Source: Parazoarcus communis SWub3 = DSM 12120 (GTDB lineage Bacteria; Pseudomonadota; Gammaproteobacteria; Burkholderiales; Rhodocyclaceae). Taken from it: a stretch of 64,000 nucleotides of DNA. This document shows positions 8,902 to 55,665 of this stretch, in pieces. Location: NCBI RefSeq assembly GCF_003226565.1, contig NZ_QKOE01000007.1:1-64000 (forward strand). The letters run 5' to 3'. A model generated the notes under the pieces. The model made no database searches, was not told where the DNA came from, and saw only the letters and a program-made list of their open reading frames with translations. Position numbers and translations under genes: made by a program. Position 1 is the stretch's first letter, and each line of letters begins with the position of its first letter.

Positions 8902-9037
8902 AATGGTGTCTGTAGTGCTGAAAGCGGCGCAGAATACGCCCGGTGCTCATCCGCGGCAAATCCGTGCAGGCCGCAGGCTTGCGCAGATCTAGTGAAGATA
9001 GTCGAATAACAAATGTACGCGCCTGGAGCTTTTCTGA

Positions 9038-46882: not shown

Positions 46883-48142
46883 ATGCACCGTATCAACCTG
46901 CACGACGCGATCGTGGCACTGACCACGTCGCTGGATTTTGTGGGCGTGGATGAAATTCAGCATGGCAAGCGTGTTGGCCATATGGCGCGGGTCGTGGCCG
47001 AGACGATGGCTTGGCCGCAGGCGCGCTGCCTGGATTTGCTGCACGCTGGCATGTTGCACGATTGTGGCGTTTCGCGCGTGCGCGAGCACCGCAACCTGAC
47101 CGAGACCCTGGAGTGGGACGGTGCCGAAGAGCACTGCGTGCGCGGCGCGGACTATCTGGCGGCCTGCCCGGTGCTAGCGCGTTATGCCGGTGTGGTGCGC
47201 TATCACCATACGCGCTGGGAAGATCTGCAGGCGATGCACGAGGTGGATCTGGAGACCCGGATCGAGGCCAATCTGGTTTATCTGGTAGATCGTGTCGACG
47301 TGCTGCTGGCGCCTTATCTGGTGGGCGGACATCTGGCCAACGACATCATCTGGGAGCGGGAAGGGATCGTCGATCGCGTGCGCAGCCTGTCCGGCACATT
47401 GTTCGAGCCAGGTCTGGTGGAGGCGTTTTGCGAGGTTGCAGCGTCCGAGGCCTTCTGGCTGTCGATGGAGCCGCTGTACCTGAATGAAGAGCTTGAGTTG
47501 CTGGGCAAGCAGATGCCGCCGGTCATGTTGCAGACGGCTGAGCTACTTGAGCTGGCTGACCTGTTTTCACGTGTGGTGGATGCCAAAAGTCATTACACCG
47601 ACGACCACTCCCGCCGCGTCGCCGCAATCAGCCGCCACCTTGCGGCGGCCATGGGGCGCACCGGTGACAGCCTGATCATGATCGAGCTGGCAGGCCTGCT
47701 GCACGACATGGGCAAGCTGAGGGTGCCTGACGAGATCATTGAGAAACCCGGGACGCTCAACCGCGACGAGCGCGCCTATATTGCGCGTCATAGCTATGAT
47801 ACGTACCGTATCCTGTTACGCATCTTTCCCGATACGCCGATCCCGGGTTGGGCGGGGTCGCACCATGAAAATCTGCTGGGTCAGGGATACCCGTTCAGGA
47901 CCGCTGCGGGTGAGATCGACCTGGAAACCCGCATCATCTCGGTGGCAGATATCTTCCAGGCCTTGTTGCAGGATCGTCCGTATCGTCCCCGACTGGATGC
48001 CAGGGCGGTGGTTGAACGGGTGCAGGCAATGGTGGATGAAGGACGGCTGGATGCGGATGTCGTCGCGGTGCTGATTGCCGAACTGGATAGCTGCCTGGCT
48101 TTGGCTTTGCCTGACGGTGTGCGCCGTACCCCGGCTGCGTGA
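46883..48142 (+). CDS. tandem HD / HD-GYP c-di-GMP phosphodiesterase
   Basis: A 419-residue cytoplasmic protein with two HD domains. The first (about residues 25-170) has HGKRVGHMARVV, LHAGMLHDCGVS and VRYHHTRWED. The second (about 225-395) is a clear HD-GYP: DDHSRRVAAISRHLAA, LAGLLHDMGKLRVPDEII and SHHENLLGQGYPF, where the GYP motif is preserved as GQGYP. The metal ligands appear intact in the second domain, so c-di-GMP hydrolysis is likely. No receiver domain is present. Convergent with the Hpt gene of the signalling operon, 7 bp from its end. Confidence 0.88.
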   Translation: MHRINLHDAIVALTTSLDFVGVDEIQHGKRVGHMARVVAETMAWPQARCLDLLHAGMLHDCGVSRVREHRNLTETLEWDGAEEHCVRGADYLAACPVLARYAGVVRYHHTRWEDLQAMHEVDLETRIEANLVYLVDRVDVLLAPYLVGGHLANDIIWEREGIVDRVRSLSGTLFEPGLVEAFCEVAASEAFWLSMEPLYLNEELELLGKQMPPVMLQTAELLELADLFSRVVDAKSHYTDDHSRRVAAISRHLAAAMGRTGDSLIMIELAGLLHDMGKLRVPDEIIEKPGTLNRDERAYIARHSYDTYRILLRIFPDTPIPGWAGSHHENLLGQGYPFRTAAGEIDLETRIISVADIFQALLQDRPYRPRLDARAVVERVQAMVDEGRLDADVVAVLIAELDSCLALALPDGVRRTPAA

Positions 48143-48149
48143 GTGTGCG

Positions 48150-48509
48150 TCAGTTTGCCGTCGGGCGCTTGAGGTAAGTTTCAAGTTCTGCGCAGAGTTG
48201 TCCGACCTCTGCAATCAACTGCTGGCGTAGTGTATCGAGTGGCGTGCCATCCGATTTGCAGGCACGTTCCAGTGCGCCCGCCATCTGGGCTGCGGGATGG
48301 GCGTGGATCTGCGCCAGCATGCCACGCAGTGAATGCGCGATCTTGCCTTGACCCGGACGGTCATTCGTCGCTTCCAGTGTGCCGACGGTTTCCTGCTGCC
48401 AGACCAGTGCGCGCTGGAGGATCTCCCGCGTCAAGGTGCCGTCGTCCATCAGGTCATCACGCAGGGCGACCGGGTCAAAGTGGTGAAACGCAGACAGCTG
48501 GTCAGTCAT
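48150..48509 (-). CDS. Hpt-domain phosphotransfer protein (first)
   Basis: A 119-residue helical stand-alone phosphotransferase. The phosphorylatable His is in KIAHSLRGMLAQI (about residues 56-68), where the usual K-G after the histidine is R-G. Last gene of a four-gene minus-strand operon (HTH-receiver, sensor kinase, receiver, Hpt), 6 bp after the receiver gene. It likely shuttles phosphate between receivers. Confidence 0.82.
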   Translation of the reverse strand: MTDQLSAFHHFDPVALRDDLMDDGTLTREILQRALVWQQETVGTLEATNDRPGQGKIAHSLRGMLAQIHAHPAAQMAGALERACKSDGTPLDTLRQQLIAEVGQLCAELETYLKRPTAN

Positions 48510-48515
48510 CGCGGA

Positions 48516-48899
48516 TCAGGCCTCGGCTGAGGGGGCATTGCGGACCGGTGCAATTGCCTGGGTCAGTGTAGCCAGGCTGAGCGGTTTCAGCAGGATGTCG
48601 TTGAAGCCTGCGTCGAGGAACTCTTCGCGGTCCTGCGCCATGCCGTGCGCAGTATACGCAATCAGGTGTATGTCCCGCCAGGCGGGATTGGCGCGGATGA
48701 TGCGGCAGGCCTCGGTTCCACTCATGCCTGGCATCGAGATGTCCAGCAGGATCAGCGCGGGCTGGATGTCGGGCAGACGTTGCAGCATCGATTCGGCATC
48801 GGCGAATTCTTCGATCGTCCAGCCAAGACGTTGCATGAAGGCTGCCGGCAGTTTGCGGTTGACCGGACTGTCGTCAGTAATGAAGGCAAGCGAACTCAT
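48516..48899 (-). CDS. stand-alone receiver-domain response regulator
   Basis: A 127-residue receiver without output domain: acidic pair AFITDDSPVN (residues 5-14), phospho-acceptor Asp in LILLDISMPGMSG, Thr in AYTAHGMA, and Lys in ILLKPLS. It follows the sensor kinase stop by 5 bp, so it takes the place of the C-terminal receiver of a hybrid kinase. Confidence 0.9.
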   Translation of the reverse strand: MSSLAFITDDSPVNRKLPAAFMQRLGWTIEEFADAESMLQRLPDIQPALILLDISMPGMSGTEACRIIRANPAWRDIHLIAYTAHGMAQDREEFLDAGFNDILLKPLSLATLTQAIAPVRNAPSAEA

Positions 48900-48904
48900 G
48901 GATC

Positions 48905-51454
48905 TCAGCTGGATTGAGTCGGAGGAGAGGCTGCCGGTATCGTGATCGAGAAGCTTGAGCCGACGCCTACCCGTGAGCTTACCTCAATCCGGCCGCCCAT
49001 CAAGTCGACCATCCGGCGCGCCAGTGACAGACCCAGTCCGGTACCCATATGGCGGCGGGTAAGGAAGTTTTCCGATTGGCAGAAGGGTTCGAAGATGTGC
49101 TCGAGATCCTTGTCCGGAATGCCAACGCCCGTGTCGCTGACCGTTAGCACCAACGATTGATCGCGCTGTTGCAGCCGCACACGTACATCACCTTGCTCGG
49201 TAAATTTGATCGCATTGGACAACAGGTTGTTGACAACCTGACGTAGTCTGACCGGATCGCCCCGACCCCAGTACTCGTCCGGAATGTCGGTGTGCAAGTC
49301 GAGATTGGACGCGGCAGCGGTGACAGAGTAGAGGTTGACTGCGGAGCGCATCAGCTCCGATACGTTGACCGATTCCAGGCGCAGCTCCATGCGGCCGGCC
49401 TCGATCTTGGCGAGATCGAGCACGTCGTTGAGGACAGCTAGCAGATGGTGACCGCTGTCCCGGATGGTTTCGGCGTAGCCACGTTGTTCTTCATTGTGCA
49501 GATCCATGTGCAGCAACTCGGCGTAGCCGATGATGCCGTTGAGCGGTGTGCGCAGTTCATGCGACATGCTGGCAAGGAACTCGGACTTCATCCGGTTGGC
49601 CTGTTCTGCGGTCAGTCTGGCCTCCTCGAGTCGAACGATCGAGGCTTGTACCGAGTCCGCCATGCGATTGAACGAGTGTCCCATCTCGGCCATTTCGTCC
49701 TTGCCGCGCACCTCGAGTCGCGCGTCGAGGTCACCCCGCTGGAAGCGCCCGATGCCCGCAACCACCGATGTGATGCGGCTTGACAGCAGGTTGGCCATCC
49801 ATACCGCGATGAAGATGACTGCGATGATCATGACAATGGTGGATACCGTCAGTGCAGCCGCCGTGTTGGCAAGACTCTTGCCAATATCTGTTACCAGTGA
49901 TTCGCGCTGGCTCTGCATGTCAAGATCGGCGCGGGCTGTCATCGCACTGATGCGCTTGCCCGATTCGGTCGCGGCCTGGTGGAAATCATCCACATTGGCG
50001 CCGATGGTGACAAAACCGAAACCCCGGCGCGAATGGCCATAGCGGCCGGTGTAGTAGGGAATGGCAGCAGCAGTCGTCAGCTTCCACAAGCCACTGAAGA
50101 AGATGTTGAATGAACCCGATCCGCCGTGTTCGGTCAGGTCGTACCAGCCGATGCATTGGGGCGAGAAGTTCAGGTAGCGACAATCCAGACCGACCGAGCC
50201 CGATGTGGACGAGGCCGGGTGCGGCTTGCGGGTGATGCGCTGATCCTTGAACGGCTCGACCGTTTCGGCGAAGGCCGGCCAGGACCGGCCGCTGGCTTGC
50301 CAGGCTTCGTAAAGCTCCTGATCCAGCCATGGCGTTGCGCGTTCGCCGGTGGCGGGGTCGAAGCCGACAATGAAGTAGTCGCGCGCGTGGGAGATGCTGC
50401 GGCCCAGGTAATCCCACATGAAGGCGTAGTTGCCGGAGGCCGGGTCTGCAATCGCCGTGTGCCGTTTGTCAGTCGGGCTGACCGGGTCGGTGAAGGCCAT
50501 CAGGTGGGCGTGGTCCAGCGCCAGTGTGACGTAGCCGATCACCTTGCCGTCGCGCTCCACGGGTGTGGCCCATCGGATCAGGCCGCGAAAGCGCTCGCCC
50601 ACTGGGTTCTCAAGCCCGGCGTAGCCGGATTTTTCCGGCTCGAAAGGCTTGTTTCGCTTGGTGGCTTCTGCCGGGGTGTAGGGGCCGATCCAGGCGGCGG
50701 GTACTTGCTTGCCGATGACCTCGGAGACATAGATCTCTCCTGGCGCGAGTGCCTGTAAATCGGACCAGTAGGTTTCGGCGCGCAGGAAGGTGTTCTCGCG
50801 CCGCTTGATATCGCGCAAGTCGCTGTCGAGCAGGTCCTTGGCTGGATCGGTCACGATCTTGATCTTCTCGATGCCGTCCAGGCCGACGAAGGTGATCTCC
50901 ATGAACAGCGGTGCCGTATATTTGCGCTCGACCGGGTCGGGTTCGCGGTAGTTGAAGGCGCGCGAATTGTCCGACAGCGGGGCGCGAACCGGTGATCGGT
51001 CGATCTTTACGAGTTCGGCGGGTTCCCACTTGCTGCCGTCCGCGCTGGGCCGGTAGGGCACGTGGTCTTCAAGGTCGCGCAGATGCCCATCAACAAACCA
51101 CCGGTAGGTGGAGGCGTCAATCGGCATCCTGGCTGCGTGCAGGATGTCCTTGTCACGCTCATATAGAAACTGGGCGACGGCGCGGGCTGTTTGTGTGGTC
51201 AGGGTTTCGATCGCTTCGCGGGAGCGATCGTCCAGGGCTGCGATTGCATCGCTGATGGCGGTGTCGGCGGTGCTCTGCTGCGTGTCGCGCATGTTGCTGA
51301 CCATGCTGATGACGCCATCGGTCACCGATTCGCCCAGCTTCTGTGCAGCGCTCCATGCAAACCAGGCCAGCAACAATAGCGGCACAACCTTGATGGCAAC
51401 AAAAATGGCGATCAGCTTGGCGCGGATGCTCAGGTTTTCCAGCCATGAACGCAT
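48905..51454 (-). CDS. large transmembrane sensor histidine kinase (no receiver)
   Basis: An 849-residue kinase. TM1 is around residues 11-33 and TM2 around 530-552, enclosing a ~500-residue periplasmic sensor that looks like a long Cache-type region (ALDHAHLMAFTDPVSPTD, YNEY-like segments and two Cys near CRYLNFSPQC). HAMP follows (553-605), HisKA H-box MSHELRTPLNGIIGYAELL (His near 632) and HATPase with NNLLSNAIKFTE, DTGVGIPD and GTGLGLSLA. The catalytic motifs are intact. No receiver domain is attached; the next two genes supply a separate receiver and Hpt. Confidence 0.92.
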   Translation of the reverse strand: MRSWLENLSIRAKLIAIFVAIKVVPLLLLAWFAWSAAQKLGESVTDGVISMVSNMRDTQQSTADTAISDAIAALDDRSREAIETLTTQTARAVAQFLYERDKDILHAARMPIDASTYRWFVDGHLRDLEDHVPYRPSADGSKWEPAELVKIDRSPVRAPLSDNSRAFNYREPDPVERKYTAPLFMEITFVGLDGIEKIKIVTDPAKDLLDSDLRDIKRRENTFLRAETYWSDLQALAPGEIYVSEVIGKQVPAAWIGPYTPAEATKRNKPFEPEKSGYAGLENPVGERFRGLIRWATPVERDGKVIGYVTLALDHAHLMAFTDPVSPTDKRHTAIADPASGNYAFMWDYLGRSISHARDYFIVGFDPATGERATPWLDQELYEAWQASGRSWPAFAETVEPFKDQRITRKPHPASSTSGSVGLDCRYLNFSPQCIGWYDLTEHGGSGSFNIFFSGLWKLTTAAAIPYYTGRYGHSRRGFGFVTIGANVDDFHQAATESGKRISAMTARADLDMQSQRESLVTDIGKSLANTAAALTVSTIVMIIAVIFIAVWMANLLSSRITSVVAGIGRFQRGDLDARLEVRGKDEMAEMGHSFNRMADSVQASIVRLEEARLTAEQANRMKSEFLASMSHELRTPLNGIIGYAELLHMDLHNEEQRGYAETIRDSGHHLLAVLNDVLDLAKIEAGRMELRLESVNVSELMRSAVNLYSVTAAASNLDLHTDIPDEYWGRGDPVRLRQVVNNLLSNAIKFTEQGDVRVRLQQRDQSLVLTVSDTGVGIPDKDLEHIFEPFCQSENFLTRRHMGTGLGLSLARRMVDLMGGRIEVSSRVGVGSSFSITIPAASPPTQSS

Positions 51455-51517
51455 GTGTTGTCCCCGATGAGTATTGTTATTTGTGCGATCTGGCAGCGGC
51501 AGGGAAAGCGGTGATGA

Positions 51518-52162
51518 TCAGTTGTCCGCGCGGATGTCCGAGGCCATGACACGCTGCCGTCTGACCAGTGAGATCAGCGCCTGGACATAGCCGTGAAGTT
51601 CGCGAAAGGGGACGGGCTTGCCATAGGCCACCACGTCCGGCGGCAATCCACCCTCGGCTTCGATTTCTTCGGCTGACAACGAGGACACGACGACGATGGC
51701 AATATCCAGGGTCGCCGGATTATCGCGCAGGCGGCGAATCATTTCGAACCCGTTCACCCCGTTCATGCGCAGGTCGGTGATCAGAAGGTCGGGTGGCTGC
51801 CTGCCAACCGCCATCAGCGCGTCGAGGCCGTGCTCGAAGATCCTGACATCAAGCGGCAACGCCCAGCGCTCAAGTGCTTCCCGGTAGACGTGGCGCAGCA
51901 ACTCGTCATCCTCGACCACCATGACACGGAAGCGGTCAGTCTCTTCACCTGCATTACGCGGACCACGTGTCCGGCTGGGCTGGGCTTGTGCGAGCAAGGC
52001 ATCGACGGAATCCTGGCGGATCCGGCGGTGCCCGCCGGCGGTCTTCCAGGCAACCAGCTTGCCGCTTTCGACCATCTGCTGGACCGCGCCCAATGACAGC
52101 CCAAGCTGTTTGGCGGCCTGAGCCGTGCTGATGAATTCTCGCGGTGTTCCGGCTGTTGGCAT
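51518..52162 (-). CDS. excisionase/MerR-type HTH protein fused to a C-terminal receiver domain
   Basis: A 214-residue protein with an unusual order. The N-terminal 60 residues are an excisionase-family helix-turn-helix (FISTAQAAKQLGLSLGAVQQ, then KTAGGHRRIRQDSVDALLA, with the GGHRR wing). The receiver comes after it, from about residue 77: VMVVEDDELLRHVY, phospho-acceptor in LLITDLRMNGVNG, Ser in VVVSSLSAEE and Lys in VAYGKPVPF. Typical regulators put the receiver first. It heads the operon, 63 bp before the kinase gene. Confidence 0.85.
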   Translation of the reverse strand: MPTAGTPREFISTAQAAKQLGLSLGAVQQMVESGKLVAWKTAGGHRRIRQDSVDALLAQAQPSRTRGPRNAGEETDRFRVMVVEDDELLRHVYREALERWALPLDVRIFEHGLDALMAVGRQPPDLLITDLRMNGVNGFEMIRRLRDNPATLDIAIVVVSSLSAEEIEAEGGLPPDVVAYGKPVPFRELHGYVQALISLVRRQRVMASDIRADN

Positions 52163-52527
52163 GGTCTGGGTCTAAAGGGTGAAGTAAAGGTCGGGAACAG
52201 CCGTATCGGACAAAAAGGGATGTTGTCGAAATTTTAAATCAGAATCGTGATGTATTTGCGCATAATCCGGCCCGGCAGGCCGTGGCTGTATTGAAAAGGC
52301 CACTGTTTCATGATCAGCGTGTCGTGGCAGATGTCAGCAGGATGCTGTTGGGCTGGAGTAGGTTGTGGAGCGTCATGCAGAACTGCCGTTGAAGCCGGTG
52401 ATCGAGTAAGTTCATATTGCGCTGATGAATACTGGTTGAGTCTTGAGTGGCTAAACTTTCCTGCTGGACTTGACGCATGTTGAAATGGGCGTTGTACTGA
52501 AAACTTGGATTAATCGGAAAGGCGTGT
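52163..52527. other. 365-bp intergenic region between divergent signalling genes
   Basis: No gene of convincing length. It separates the divergent HTH-receiver operon from the second Hpt gene and must hold both promoters; an AT-rich patch (about 52205-52270) is the best candidate place. I did not find a confident -10/-35 pair, a terminator or a repeat beyond a TGGAGCGTCA decamer at 52366-52375. Confidence 0.4.
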
Positions 52528-52893
52528 ATGCAACCGTCCGGGATGATCGAGCCTGTGCTCGACGAGCGATTACTTGCAGAGCTTTACGGAATACTGGGAG
52601 AGGATCTGCGCGGTATCGTGCAGCAGTTGCTCGATCAGTTGCCCGAGCAGTGTCATGCCTTGCATGGGGCCGTTGCAGGGGGGGAGCTGCTTCAGGTGAA
52701 GAAGCTGGCTCATTCGATCAAGGGTGGGGCGGGCAATCTGGGGGCAGTGGCACTGTCGGCTGCAGCGGCGCGGCTGGAAATGGCTGCTGCGGGTGGCGAC
52801 AGAGCGGCCACTGGAGGCCTGATGGAAGCGGTTGACTCGCTGGCGCACCTGACCGAAGCAGCGCTGCAGCGTTTCCTGGATGAGCGGCGGTAG
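52528..52893 (+). CDS. Hpt-domain phosphotransfer protein (second)
   Basis: A 121-residue helical phosphotransferase with the classical site AHSIKGGAGNLGA (His near residue 61). A GGAAAGG lies before the ATG at 52528. Convergent with the receiver-GGDEF-EAL gene (17 bp between stops), which is likely its target or source of phosphate. It is a second Hpt within 4.5 kb of the first. Confidence 0.9.
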   Translation: MQPSGMIEPVLDERLLAELYGILGEDLRGIVQQLLDQLPEQCHALHGAVAGGELLQVKKLAHSIKGGAGNLGAVALSAAAARLEMAAAGGDRAATGGLMEAVDSLAHLTEAALQRFLDERR

Positions 52894-52910
52894 TGCCTTT
52901 TCCTGCGGCT

Positions 52911-55037
52911 TCAGTCTGGGCGGCTGAAGCTTGAGGCAAGCACTTCCAGGTCTGAGGGCGCCATGGGTTTGCCAATCAGGTAGCCCTGGATCTCATTGAC
53001 ACCCAGGGCCTCGATGAAATCGCATTGACGCAAGGTCTCGATGCCCTCTGCAATGGTGGACAGACCGAGGGTCTGGGCAATGGCAGTAATTGCACGCACG
53101 ATGGCGCGGTCGGCCTGTGAATTGGTGATGTTGTTCACAAAGGCGCGATCGATCTTGATCGTGTCAAGCGGAAAGCGCAGCAGGTATTCGAGCGACGAGT
53201 AGCCGATGCCGAAGTCGTCGATGGCGATCTTGAAGCCATTTTCGCGCAGGCGCTTCAGCAGGTTGATGGCGTGCTCCGGGTCCTGCATTGCCAGGCTTTC
53301 GGTGATCTCGAGTTCGACCAGTCGGGGAGATGCGCCGGTGCCGCGACAGGCACCGACAATCGAGTCGAACAGCATCGGGTCGAGAAACTGCCGGGCAGAC
53401 AGGTTGATCCCCACGCGCAGGTTCAGCCCTTTGGCTTCCCATTCCTGAGCTTGCCGGCAAGCTTCGGTGATGACCCAGAAGCCGACCGCCGAGATCAGCC
53501 CGACTTCCTCGAGTACGGGAATGAAATCGACAGGAGACACCAGGCCACGTTCCGGGTGCTGCCAGCGCAGCAGGGCTTCTGCGCCGACAATGCGTCCGCT
53601 GCGCAGATCCATCTGGGGTTGATACACCAGATGGAATTGGTCGCGCTCAAGGGCGTGACGCAGGTCGCGTTCGATGTCGAGTGCGATGGCTGCGCTGCGC
53701 CCGGCTTGCAGGTTGGCCGCAACCAGTTGCTTGCCTTGTTGCCGCGCGCTGCGCTGTGCTTCCTGCGCAAGATTGATGAGTTCGTCCGCATTGCTGCCAT
53801 GTGCGGGGAACATCGCCAGACCAGCAGTGGCGCTCAGGAAGGCCTCCTGTTGATTGACCTTGACCGGGTATTCCAGCGTTTCCAGCAGGTGCTCGAGCCG
53901 ATGCTGCAGCTCGTCTTCGCTGTGTCCTTTCAGCAAGATGGCAAATTCGTCTCCGCCGACACGTGCGACCTCGCCGCCTGAGGACTCGGCTGCTTTCAGT
54001 CGCTGAGCGACTTGAACCAGCAGGCTGTTGCCCGCTGCTTCGCCCAAGGCGTCGTTATGTCGATGGAAGCGGGTCAGGTCGATCCAGGCAAGCAGCAGGA
54101 CCTCATCCGTGCCGCTGCGGATGGCGTCAACCGCCTGAGTGACCTTGCTGCTGAATAGCCGCCGATTACCCAGCCCGGTCAGTTCATCATGCAGGGCGAG
54201 GTAGTTGACGAGGGCTTCGGCGCGTCGGCTGTCGGTGATGTTCTGGAATGCGCCGAAAAAGCGCTGGGCGTCGTCTCCCTCGATGCCGCGCTCGGCGATC
54301 AGTCGGATGATTTGCTCGGATTTGCGGCTGCCCAGACGGAACTCGATGTCCAGTCGCCCGCCGTTGCAGACGGCATTGAATGCCTGCAGGCAGCGTTCGC
54401 GGTCGTCAGGCGTGATGGTATTCAGAAGCTGCTCGAGGTTACGGATGTTATCGGTTGGCGTACCGAGCAACTCGTCTGCATGACCTGACCACTGTACGTG
54501 ATTGTCCTCAGGGTCCCATTCCCAGAAGCCGAGGCGGGCAATACGGGTGGCTGACGCTTCGCGCAGGCGGTTCTGGCGAACCTCTCGGGCAAGGGCGCCC
54601 GAACGTAGCGCATAGCGGACGCGCTGGGTGAGCAATGGCCAGTTGATCGGCTTGGTGATGAAATCGGTCGCGCCTGCGTTGAAGGCGGTTTCGATGGCCT
54701 CCATGTCTTCTGCACCGGTCAGCATCAGCAGCGGTGTGCCCTGATCGCCGTCGATATCGCGGATCCGGCGGCAGGCTTCTAGCCCGTCCATGACCGGCAT
54801 CATCACATCCAGCAGGACCAGGGCTGGACGCAGGCGGGTAAAAATATCCACCCCTTCGGCACCGTTGGCGGCTTCGAGGATCTGGTATCCCTGGCGACTG
54901 AGCACGCCGCGCAACAGCATGCGGGTCGGTACATCATCATCGACGATCAGCAGTTGGACAGGGGTGGTATCGGGCAAGCGTAACTCCGGAACGTCGATCA
55001 AAAGCAAACGTGCACAATCGCGCGGGCAATCGCACAT
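52911..55037 (-). CDS. receiver-PAS-GGDEF-EAL c-di-GMP enzyme
   Basis: A 708-residue composite regulator. Receiver (about 27-145): LLIVDDDVPTRM, LVLLDVMMPVMDG, ITKPINWP. PAS-like domain (about 165-270): GFWEWDPEDNHVQWSGHADE. GGDEF (about 280-440): intact RVGGDEFAILL, but no RxxD inhibitory site before it. EAL (about 455-700): GAEALLRWQHPERG, NLSARQF, LEITESL, AIDDFGIGYSSLEYL, TIKIDRAF, AEGIETLRQ and QGYLIGKPM, all catalytic positions present. Could therefore act as a phosphodiesterase, with the cyclase as regulator or an active second function. Start at 55037 gives a 26-residue lead-in; a later start is possible. Confidence 0.92.
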   Translation of the reverse strand: MCDCPRDCARLLLIDVPELRLPDTTPVQLLIVDDDVPTRMLLRGVLSRQGYQILEAANGAEGVDIFTRLRPALVLLDVMMPVMDGLEACRRIRDIDGDQGTPLLMLTGAEDMEAIETAFNAGATDFITKPINWPLLTQRVRYALRSGALAREVRQNRLREASATRIARLGFWEWDPEDNHVQWSGHADELLGTPTDNIRNLEQLLNTITPDDRERCLQAFNAVCNGGRLDIEFRLGSRKSEQIIRLIAERGIEGDDAQRFFGAFQNITDSRRAEALVNYLALHDELTGLGNRRLFSSKVTQAVDAIRSGTDEVLLLAWIDLTRFHRHNDALGEAAGNSLLVQVAQRLKAAESSGGEVARVGGDEFAILLKGHSEDELQHRLEHLLETLEYPVKVNQQEAFLSATAGLAMFPAHGSNADELINLAQEAQRSARQQGKQLVAANLQAGRSAAIALDIERDLRHALERDQFHLVYQPQMDLRSGRIVGAEALLRWQHPERGLVSPVDFIPVLEEVGLISAVGFWVITEACRQAQEWEAKGLNLRVGINLSARQFLDPMLFDSIVGACRGTGASPRLVELEITESLAMQDPEHAINLLKRLRENGFKIAIDDFGIGYSSLEYLLRFPLDTIKIDRAFVNNITNSQADRAIVRAITAIAQTLGLSTIAEGIETLRQCDFIEALGVNEIQGYLIGKPMAPSDLEVLASSFSRPD

Positions 55038-55278
55038 CGAATGAGCAGGGTCATACGGCTGGAGGCCACAGTCGAGACCGCCTGCAGATATTTCGATTTT
55101 TGCTGAATTATCTCATGCTGACGCGGGCTTGGGGGTGTTTGCTTAGGCACTTGCATCAGGGCGCCACAAGCAATCTCTTGGGTGGCGGCAGGGGTATTTT
55201 TGTCGGTAAAGTGCTTGCTCTGACTGATGCTTTGATAGACATTTGCAGCTTGATGGAATCGACTTCGGAATCGCAGCC

Positions 55279-55665
55279 ATGTCCGCCTCCCGCAATGTTC
55301 TTGGTAGCCCCCTGCTGGCCTGCAGCTATGCACCCCTGACCGGTTTCTTTCGCACCGGGTGTTGCGAAACCGGGCCCGACGATCGGGGGCTGCATCTGGT
55401 ATGCACCCGGGTGACGGCCGAGTTCCTGGCGTTCTCGCGGAAGGTTGGAAATGACCTGTCCACACCAAGGCCGGAGTACCGCTTTGCCGGTTTGCAGCCA
55501 GGCGACCGCTGGTGTCTGTGCGCGCTGCGTTGGCTCGAGGCGCTGGATGCGGGTGTCGCCCCGCCGGTGGTGCTTGAGGCCACCAACGAGGCGGTGCTGG
55601 AGTTGGTCGGGCTCGATGTACTGCAGGCGCACGCCTACCGGGCCAACTCTGGTTCGCGGGGTTGA
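55279..55665 (+). CDS. DUF2237 family protein
   Basis: A 128-residue protein that matches DUF2237: NVLGSPLLACSYAPLTGFFR (residues 5-24), GCCETGPDDRGLHLVCTRVT, FLAFSRKVGNDLSTP, PGDRWCLCALRWLEALDAG, VVLEATNEAVLELV. The start at 55279 begins just before the conserved block. It is conserved in many bacteria, and the function is unknown; several conserved cysteines hint at metal binding. Convergent with the FrnE-like gene, 7 bp between stops. Confidence 0.9.
   Translation: MSASRNVLGSPLLACSYAPLTGFFRTGCCETGPDDRGLHLVCTRVTAEFLAFSRKVGNDLSTPRPEYRFAGLQPGDRWCLCALRWLEALDAGVAPPVVLEATNEAVLELVGLDVLQAHAYRANSGSRG

Follow-up and report, generated by a model that had tools for sequence, protein, structure and literature searches.

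A modular phosphorelay candidate with two free phosphotransfer proteins beside a cyclic di-GMP enzyme in Parazoarcus communis

Do seven signalling genes packed into 8 kb of Parazoarcus communis SWub3 (= DSM 12120) form a single pathway, and what would that pathway control? We considered this question for positions 46883 to 55037 of a 64,000-nucleotide stretch (contig NZ_QKOE01000007.1, positions 1 to 64,000; hereafter the window), where a first-pass annotation had proposed a distributed phosphorelay with outputs in cyclic di-GMP (c-di-GMP) signalling. The locus is real, is built of modules and is conserved in a small genus; its genes, domains, residues and module limits, and which of them each relative has, were computed directly. 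Our preferred reading, to which we give a probability of roughly 55%, is a modular multistep phosphorelay in which phosphate would pass from a sensor kinase to a stand-alone receiver (REC), to a histidine phosphotransfer protein (Hpt1) and on to a receiver with a helix-turn-helix domain (HTH-REC), with a parallel or shared branch from a second phosphotransfer protein (Hpt2) to a REC-PAS-GGDEF-EAL protein.

Four co-directional minus-strand genes, separated by gaps of 63, 5 and 6 bases, make up the central unit of the locus. The first (51518..52162) joins an HTH_17 domain, of excisionase/MerR-like type, to a receiver and is a predicted DNA-binding output (Pfam, NCBIfam). Behind it lie the sensor kinase (48905..51454), with a probably periplasmic, dCache-like sensor of ~500 amino acids, HAMP, HisKA and HATPase domains and no receiver (Pfam, fold prediction, transmembrane helices from sequence); the stand-alone REC (48516..48899), which is of hybrid-kinase type and a probable relay intermediate (Pfam, NCBIfam, REC tree, residues); and Hpt1 (48150..48509), a single-domain protein with its phospho-histidine in HSLRG. 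Hpt2 (52528..52893, plus strand) is likewise a single-domain phosphotransfer protein, with its phospho-histidine in HSIKG, and both were recognised from open reading frames, Pfam and alignment. Its gene is divergent from that of HTH-REC across 365 bases (52163..52527, from the coordinates), a possible shared regulatory region, and convergent with the minus-strand gene for the REC-PAS-GGDEF-EAL protein (52911..55037; Pfam, motifs). The HD-GYP gene (46883..48142, plus strand; open reading frames, Pfam, motifs) converges on the four-gene unit and encodes tandem HD domains, the C-terminal one an HD-GYP domain with HHENLLGQGYP, without a receiver. The GGDEF, EAL and HD-GYP motifs (names as in general use, as for RxxD) read as intact, the cyclase domain lacks the RxxD inhibitory site, and PAS_3 falls slightly below its Pfam cut-off (24.9 versus 25.6 bits). 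Open reading frames and Pfam bear out the seven genes with the domains and coordinates first assigned to them. The receivers, first counted as four, number three by Pfam (the stand-alone REC, HTH-REC and REC-PAS-GGDEF-EAL).

Comparison with relatives divides these genes into four modules: A, comprising HTH-REC and Hpt1; B, the kinase and REC, inserted between the two A genes; C, Hpt2 and REC-PAS-GGDEF-EAL; and D, the HD-GYP gene. Because the genome (5.0 Mb) contains 65 GGDEF domains and 10 HD_5 matches above cut-off, only ~0.1 such c-di-GMP genes are expected per 8 kb, and the seven-gene set is kept in one sister genome (locus L028) at 36-73% protein identity per gene. The grouping is not a chance cluster. 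In the relay we propose, the sensor would drive the receiver-less histidine kinase, and the path through the separate REC and Hpt1 to HTH-REC would be the most economical one given gene linkage, residue conservation and what is known of the families. Hpt2 and REC-PAS-GGDEF-EAL, judging by their conserved adjacency, would form a second Hpt-receiver pair acting on c-di-GMP. Charging of Hpt2, in addition to Hpt1, by the local REC is possible and has the weakest support of all the steps. The neighbouring HD-GYP protein is a candidate c-di-GMP phosphodiesterase, most simply without phosphorelay control, and is not made a relay output because it has no receiver.

The first step of this relay depends on the kinase and REC. 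The kinase has an H-box (MSHELRTPLNG) and HisKA and HATPase domains above their Pfam cut-offs; the HATPase ends at residue 842 of 849 and REC is a separate gene 5 bases further, so that the receiver fused C-terminal to the kinase that characterises hybrid kinases is absent. The order first described, a kinase ending without a receiver and followed by REC and Hpt genes, is correct. The accompanying idea that a hybrid kinase had been split at this locus is not upheld, since a separate REC is the usual state: 76 of 96 distinct unfused kinases (the kinase rows of a 108-row sensor tree) are closely followed, on the same strand, by a stand-alone REC, the REC domain beginning 8-77 bases past the kinase frame. 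The others comprise five with a convergent REC, 12 with neither and three at a contig edge, and no fused ancestor of the pair was recovered among the sampled relatives. In four of the 12 (L030, L148, L209, L222) a hybrid kinase follows the sensor kinase. The first of these, in genome G004 of the same genus, was considered as an orthologue of the window kinase and rejected, as it falls in another clade of the sensor tree; at L030:5027-11697 this other-clade kinase directly precedes a HisKA-HATPase-REC-REC-REC hybrid, and the pairing is similar in L148 and L209.

The stand-alone RECs themselves resemble hybrid-kinase receivers. In a quick tree built from a short alignment, with many forks unresolved and with identical RECs and matches of fewer than 95 model positions left out, they form nearly one group (78 rows, two label changes), which sits among hybrid-kinase RECs in a branch of 101 rows (support 83), apart from the HTH-REC receivers. 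Outside its own class, the window REC scores highest against hybrid-kinase receivers (103 bits for the best, against 55.5 for REC-GGDEF-EAL and 43.9 for HTH-REC receivers), and its best NCBIfam matches, below their cut-offs, are HrmK and BarA; those of the kinase core, also below cut-off, are the hybrid kinases TorS, LuxQ and BarA. The pair may thus act as a two-piece hybrid kinase, and on these matches the distributed relay first proposed, here of His-Asp-His-Asp type, remains the best reading. The acidic pair DD and the phospho-aspartate are kept in 78 of 78 stand-alone RECs, and the threonine and lysine in all 77 that are readable. At the K-3 switch position none of these 77 has an aromatic residue, compared with F or Y in all six RECs labelled REC-GGDEF-EAL. 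This fits the variability at K-3 reported for CckA-type intermediate receivers in the consulted part of PMC9981736.

If phosphate does reach REC, the next question is which phosphotransfer protein would receive it. All 40 stand-alone Hpt rows aligned, some of them from the same contig, have the phospho-histidine. Hpt1 lies downstream of HTH-REC, directly or behind REC or kinase-REC, in 5/5 loci of the genus and in 10/12 Thauera (g73) loci examined, and it stays with HTH-REC where kinase and REC are both absent (L041, L042) or where the kinase alone is absent (L068, L071). An Hpt adjoins all seven intact REC-PAS-GGDEF-EAL orthologues examined (the window, L028, L042, L282, L283, L284 and L285; at least 59% identity, four genera); the one in L283 was found by a local Hpt profile only, having been missed by tblastn with Hpt2, and in L282 the Hpt is fused behind a REC. 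Gene linkage would thus give each Hpt a receiver of its own, and the free routing of phosphate that two Hpts had been taken to imply does not follow. The L282 locus also has a kinase with the same sensor ~5 kb from its REC-Hpt gene and 6.5 kb from its REC-PAS-GGDEF-EAL gene, a second neighbourhood of modules B and C; none such is present within the stretch fetched for L163, of the same genus as L282. In a set of Magnetospirillum-like loci (L207, L225, L232, L233 and L245, match near 9001), kinase and REC are preceded by an EAL gene and followed by a further REC and an Hpt; L207 is titled Stygiobacter, groups with Magnetospirillum and may be misbinned.

The connection to c-di-GMP is best seen in other proteins that carry this sensor. 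We examined 40 sensor regions hand-picked for genus spread from the 107 genomes with matches, besides eight more, and the best 80 of at least 530 confirmed relatives, some of whose loci are on the same contigs as the hand-picked set; neither set was drawn at random. The 130 sensor rows comprise 116 sensor-HAMP-HisKA-HATPase kinases, two cut kinases, nine sensor-GGDEF-EAL proteins (with or without PAS), one sensor-GGDEF, one sensor-HD-GYP and one kinase-REC-Hpt hybrid, the architectures of L034, L201, L172, L176, L164 and L251 having been checked with Pfam. The sensor tree retains 108 of these rows after removal of identical ones, and matches covering 380 model positions or fewer, including a decayed copy in G001, were excluded; it is a quick tree with SH-aLRT support and a midpoint root, on which direction is taken from the majority state. 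The GGDEF label, on 10 of the 108 distinct rows, changes three times, each change being forced by starred branches, and the HD-GYP and hybrid labels occupy one row each. In several lineages, then, the sensor acts straight on a c-di-GMP enzyme, and no other computed result hints as strongly at a role in c-di-GMP for the kinase branch as well. Of the three c-di-GMP outputs first suggested for the locus, c-di-GMP as an output is backed by these fusions to GGDEF, GGDEF-EAL and HD-GYP; the count itself reduces to three domains in two proteins, with HD-GYP not tied to the relay.

Two of the fusions deserve separate description. At L201:8908-11442 an 845-residue frame runs from sensor through HAMP to HD-GYP and is nested in a kinase clade. 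At L176:8204-12937 the sensor sits on a PAS-HisKA-HATPase-REC-Hpt hybrid, the only fused kinase-REC-Hpt protein opened; other long sensor frames (e.g. 1602 residues in G239 and 1595 in G397) lay outside this comparison. We rejected L176 as proof of the relay order, and equally as a fused form of the window pair, because its kinase and REC resemble other hybrids more than the split family.

The arrangement had been put forward as one system to be sought in related genomes, and the search supports this in part. The intact seven-gene set is present in two of five genomes of the genus (the window and L028, in G002). Beyond these, the scatter across relatives that had been named as counting against one system is partly found, in modules and not gene by gene. 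A decayed set in G001 (L035:7329-11200) has a kinase in several frames and GGDEF-EAL remnants, with open frames for HTH-REC, REC, Hpt1 and HD-GYP; Hpt2 was not found in this copy. Modules B, C and D each also occur alone, and A occurs without each of the others, never wholly alone: it is accompanied by REC, by B, or by C and/or D. Orthologues of the HD-GYP protein occur in the four other genomes of the genus (61-74% identity) and in two g27 genomes (71-72%). A DUF2237 gene (55243..55665, plus strand), outside the relay and recognised by comparison of loci as a flanking marker of the conserved site, marks a position at which the regulatory genes differ between related genera. It stands beside HTH-REC in 12/12 g73 loci examined, 186-295 bases off save in L139, where Hpt2 lies between. 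Six of these 12 were fetched because the sensor was present, so the variants at the site are to be read as states, not frequencies. They include HTH-REC without Hpt1 (L073, L074); HTH-REC, REC and Hpt1 (L068, L071); these with the kinase (L069, L070, L138, L140, L141, L142, L145); and these with both the kinase and Hpt2 (L139). Within the genus, L041 (G003) has HTH-REC, Hpt1 and HD-GYP, and L042 (G004) has HD-GYP, Hpt1, HTH-REC, Hpt2 and REC-PAS-GGDEF-EAL without kinase and REC; g27 genomes have either HD-GYP (L286, L287) or HTH-REC (L072) at the site.

Several of these comparisons weigh against a single multistep relay. Only one small genus has the complete set, and the fetched stretches of the Thauera loci contain no GGDEF, EAL or HD-GYP gene. 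A stand-alone Hpt is near HTH-REC in none of the 36 other loci fetched (L072-L107, including the Thauera-group loci L073 and L074), so the pairing with Hpt1 is limited to the window genus and most Thauera. Many relatives have kinase and REC with no Hpt or HTH-REC nearby, so that REC must work with other partners in them; in L139, Hpt2 lacks a GGDEF-EAL neighbour. The K-3 residue is not decisive as proof of an intermediate receiver, as HTH-REC receivers are mostly without an aromatic residue there and 17 of 34 hybrid RECs have one, and the changes of the GGDEF label on the sensor tree could in principle include losses.

The alternative that survives best is that Hpt1 and Hpt2 are shared nodes, in the manner of HptB, for Hpt-less hybrid kinases elsewhere in the genome, the local kinase being one of several inputs. 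We regard this as possible, at odds well short of even. The five genomes of the genus yield 67 Pfam Hpt matches, eight of them in frames of fewer than 200 residues, and all eight are at this locus (2, 1, 2, 1 and 2 in G000-G004), including both Pfam-detected short-frame Hpts of the window genome; the other 59 matches are in frames of 447-2081 residues. Hpt1 of the window stood exactly at the cut-off in the genome search (24.6 bits) and scored 30.0 bits as a protein. The window genome also contains six kinase-REC frames without an Hpt match (two on contig C33 and one each on C11, C44, C187 and C220); on C144 there is a seventh, in which only the ATPase end was matched, and contig and frame length served to join these frames across searches. 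Proteins of the Spo0B/ChpT type would be expected to escape the Pfam Hpt model. The two free Hpts are a lower bound, as Pfam misses divergent or dimeric Hpts, and the Hpt-less hybrids may use Hpts within other proteins or act directly. The loci where HTH-REC and Hpt1 persist without kinase and REC, or without the kinase only, agree with sharing, as does P. aeruginosa HptB, which is drawn in the consulted part of PMC5085249 as fed by one of three orphan hybrids. Taken together, the counts suggest that the local Hpts may serve distant kinases too.

We think it doubtful that the locus is mere accretion, in which independent signalling modules share a permissive site by DUF2237 without cross-talk. 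HTH-REC homologues occur in 95 of 297 genomes, and the 36 fetched loci that lack a stand-alone Hpt agree with independence; kinase and REC, and HD-GYP, are found elsewhere, as are Hpt and REC-PAS-GGDEF-EAL, with hybrid kinases that have a REC close by in three of four such loci (L282, L284, L285); and the DUF2237 site holds different subsets in different genomes. Against this, two genera have kinase-REC placed precisely between HTH-REC and Hpt1, with all four genes running in one direction, the L282 neighbourhood brings B and C together in another genus, all short-frame Hpts are at this locus, and the sensor is fused directly to c-di-GMP enzymes. Single-domain RECs can act as phosphate sinks. 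A direct route, in which the kinase phosphorylates HTH-REC and the stand-alone REC is a sink or adaptor, would suit this role, the relatives with kinase and REC but no neighbouring Hpt, and the hub role given to MrrA in the consulted part of PMC9981736, and is nevertheless improbable, since REC and kinase are both of hybrid type, an Hpt lies within the same co-directional unit in the genus and most Thauera loci, and two loci that lack the kinase (L068, L071) still pair REC with Hpt1.

The arrangement looks new, although its parts and principle are familiar. A search of titles and abstract beginnings of open-licence PubMed Central papers gave no description of this gene set among the matches listed. 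In the Spo0F/Spo0B relay of Bacillus subtilis a separate REC stands between kinases and phosphotransferase, as proposed here, and in the Hno network of Shewanella oneidensis the input of HnoK is a separate H-NOX protein. The comparisons that follow refer to the consulted parts of the papers cited. PMC9981736 discusses intermediate receivers and names the Spo0F/Spo0B complex; Spo0B is a dimeric DHp-like protein (PMC11481889), whereas the window has Pfam-type Hpts and other outputs. The Hno network (HnoK/HnoS to HnoC, HnoB and HnoD) likewise branches a kinase input to a DNA-binding regulator and to c-di-GMP-type proteins with EAL and degenerate HD-GYP domains (PMC6335343). The window differs in its dCache-like sensor, separate REC and two Hpts, and its HD-GYP protein, in which Pfam finds HD domains only, is not an Hno-type response regulator with a receiver. 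In the HptB pathway of Pseudomonas aeruginosa, too, a free Hpt connects hybrid-type kinases to a receiver, and the pathway has a link to a c-di-GMP enzyme (PMC5085249); its output is HsbR/HsbA partner switching, whereas the window has two Hpts, a local kinase in two pieces, and HTH-REC and REC-GGDEF-EAL as predicted outputs. HmrABCX of Caulobacter crescentus, a proposed relay that influences motility, attachment and c-di-GMP, likewise has two separate putative Hpts (HmrX, HmrB); its kinase, HmrA, is a fused hybrid, and neither HTH-REC nor REC-GGDEF-EAL is among the parts described there (PMC11481889). None of the Hno, HptB, HmrABCX or intermediate-receiver systems is the same system.

The sensor that would feed the relay occupies ~500 residues between two hydrophobic helices, and no Pfam match precedes HAMP (residue 552) in the window kinase at E up to 0.1, the dCache profile included. 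An AlphaFold2 model (pLDDT 87) finds its best Foldseek matches in the double-Cache sensors 3lid and 2p7j (E ~1e-8, TM score by target 0.51-0.52, root-mean-square deviation ~7 Å). Because these domains are only about half as long, we call it an enlarged dCache-like sensor, probably periplasmic. It is present in 107 of 395 genomes searched in the family, spanning 24 of 68 genera (the wider family including Zoogloea, Azonexus/Dechloromonas and Propionivibrio), and also in records titled Magnetospirillum and Rhodoferax; mean column identity across 44 sequences is 63%. Two cysteines nine residues apart, C425 and C434 (within 49820-51454), are invariant in 44/44 aligned sensors, among many invariant residues, and could form a disulphide or redox switch. 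Ten genes beside the sensor kinase or its unit in five loci (L223, L197, L242, L232, L178) were scanned for a ligand clue and gave a solute-binding protein, alaS, an RNA helicase, an acetyl-CoA hydrolase, an FAD-dependent protein, aconitase, an EAL protein, nusA and two without a match; as these neighbours vary between genera, no ligand can be inferred from them.

At the output end, we compared k-mers among 24 regions upstream of HTH-REC in relatives and found no clear operator, many of the recurrent k-mers resembling DUF2237 coding sequence. The k-mer AAAATAGCAG, present in eight of the 24, resembles an extended -10 element of the TGCTATTTT kind that relatives repeatedly show ahead of HTH-REC; the window (52163-52527) has no exact copy.

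A broader picture of the locus can be drawn, tentatively and with low confidence. It may be the single phosphotransfer exchange of the genus, where the only detected free Hpts would collect phosphate from the two-piece kinase and from Hpt-less hybrids and deliver it to a single transcription regulator and a single c-di-GMP enzyme. Its modules would have been added one after another at the same site, and among wider kin the sensor would repeatedly have swapped the relay for direct fusion to a c-di-GMP enzyme. The present-day series, from HTH-REC alone through the addition of REC and Hpt1, then of the kinase, and then of Hpt2 and GGDEF-EAL, means that the assembly of a branched phosphorelay could be reconstructed, and the outputs joined to one sensor family span kinases, GGDEF(-EAL) and HD-GYP. 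Should the genome have no free Hpts beyond these two, loss of the two small genes would show what share of hybrid-kinase signalling passes through one point.

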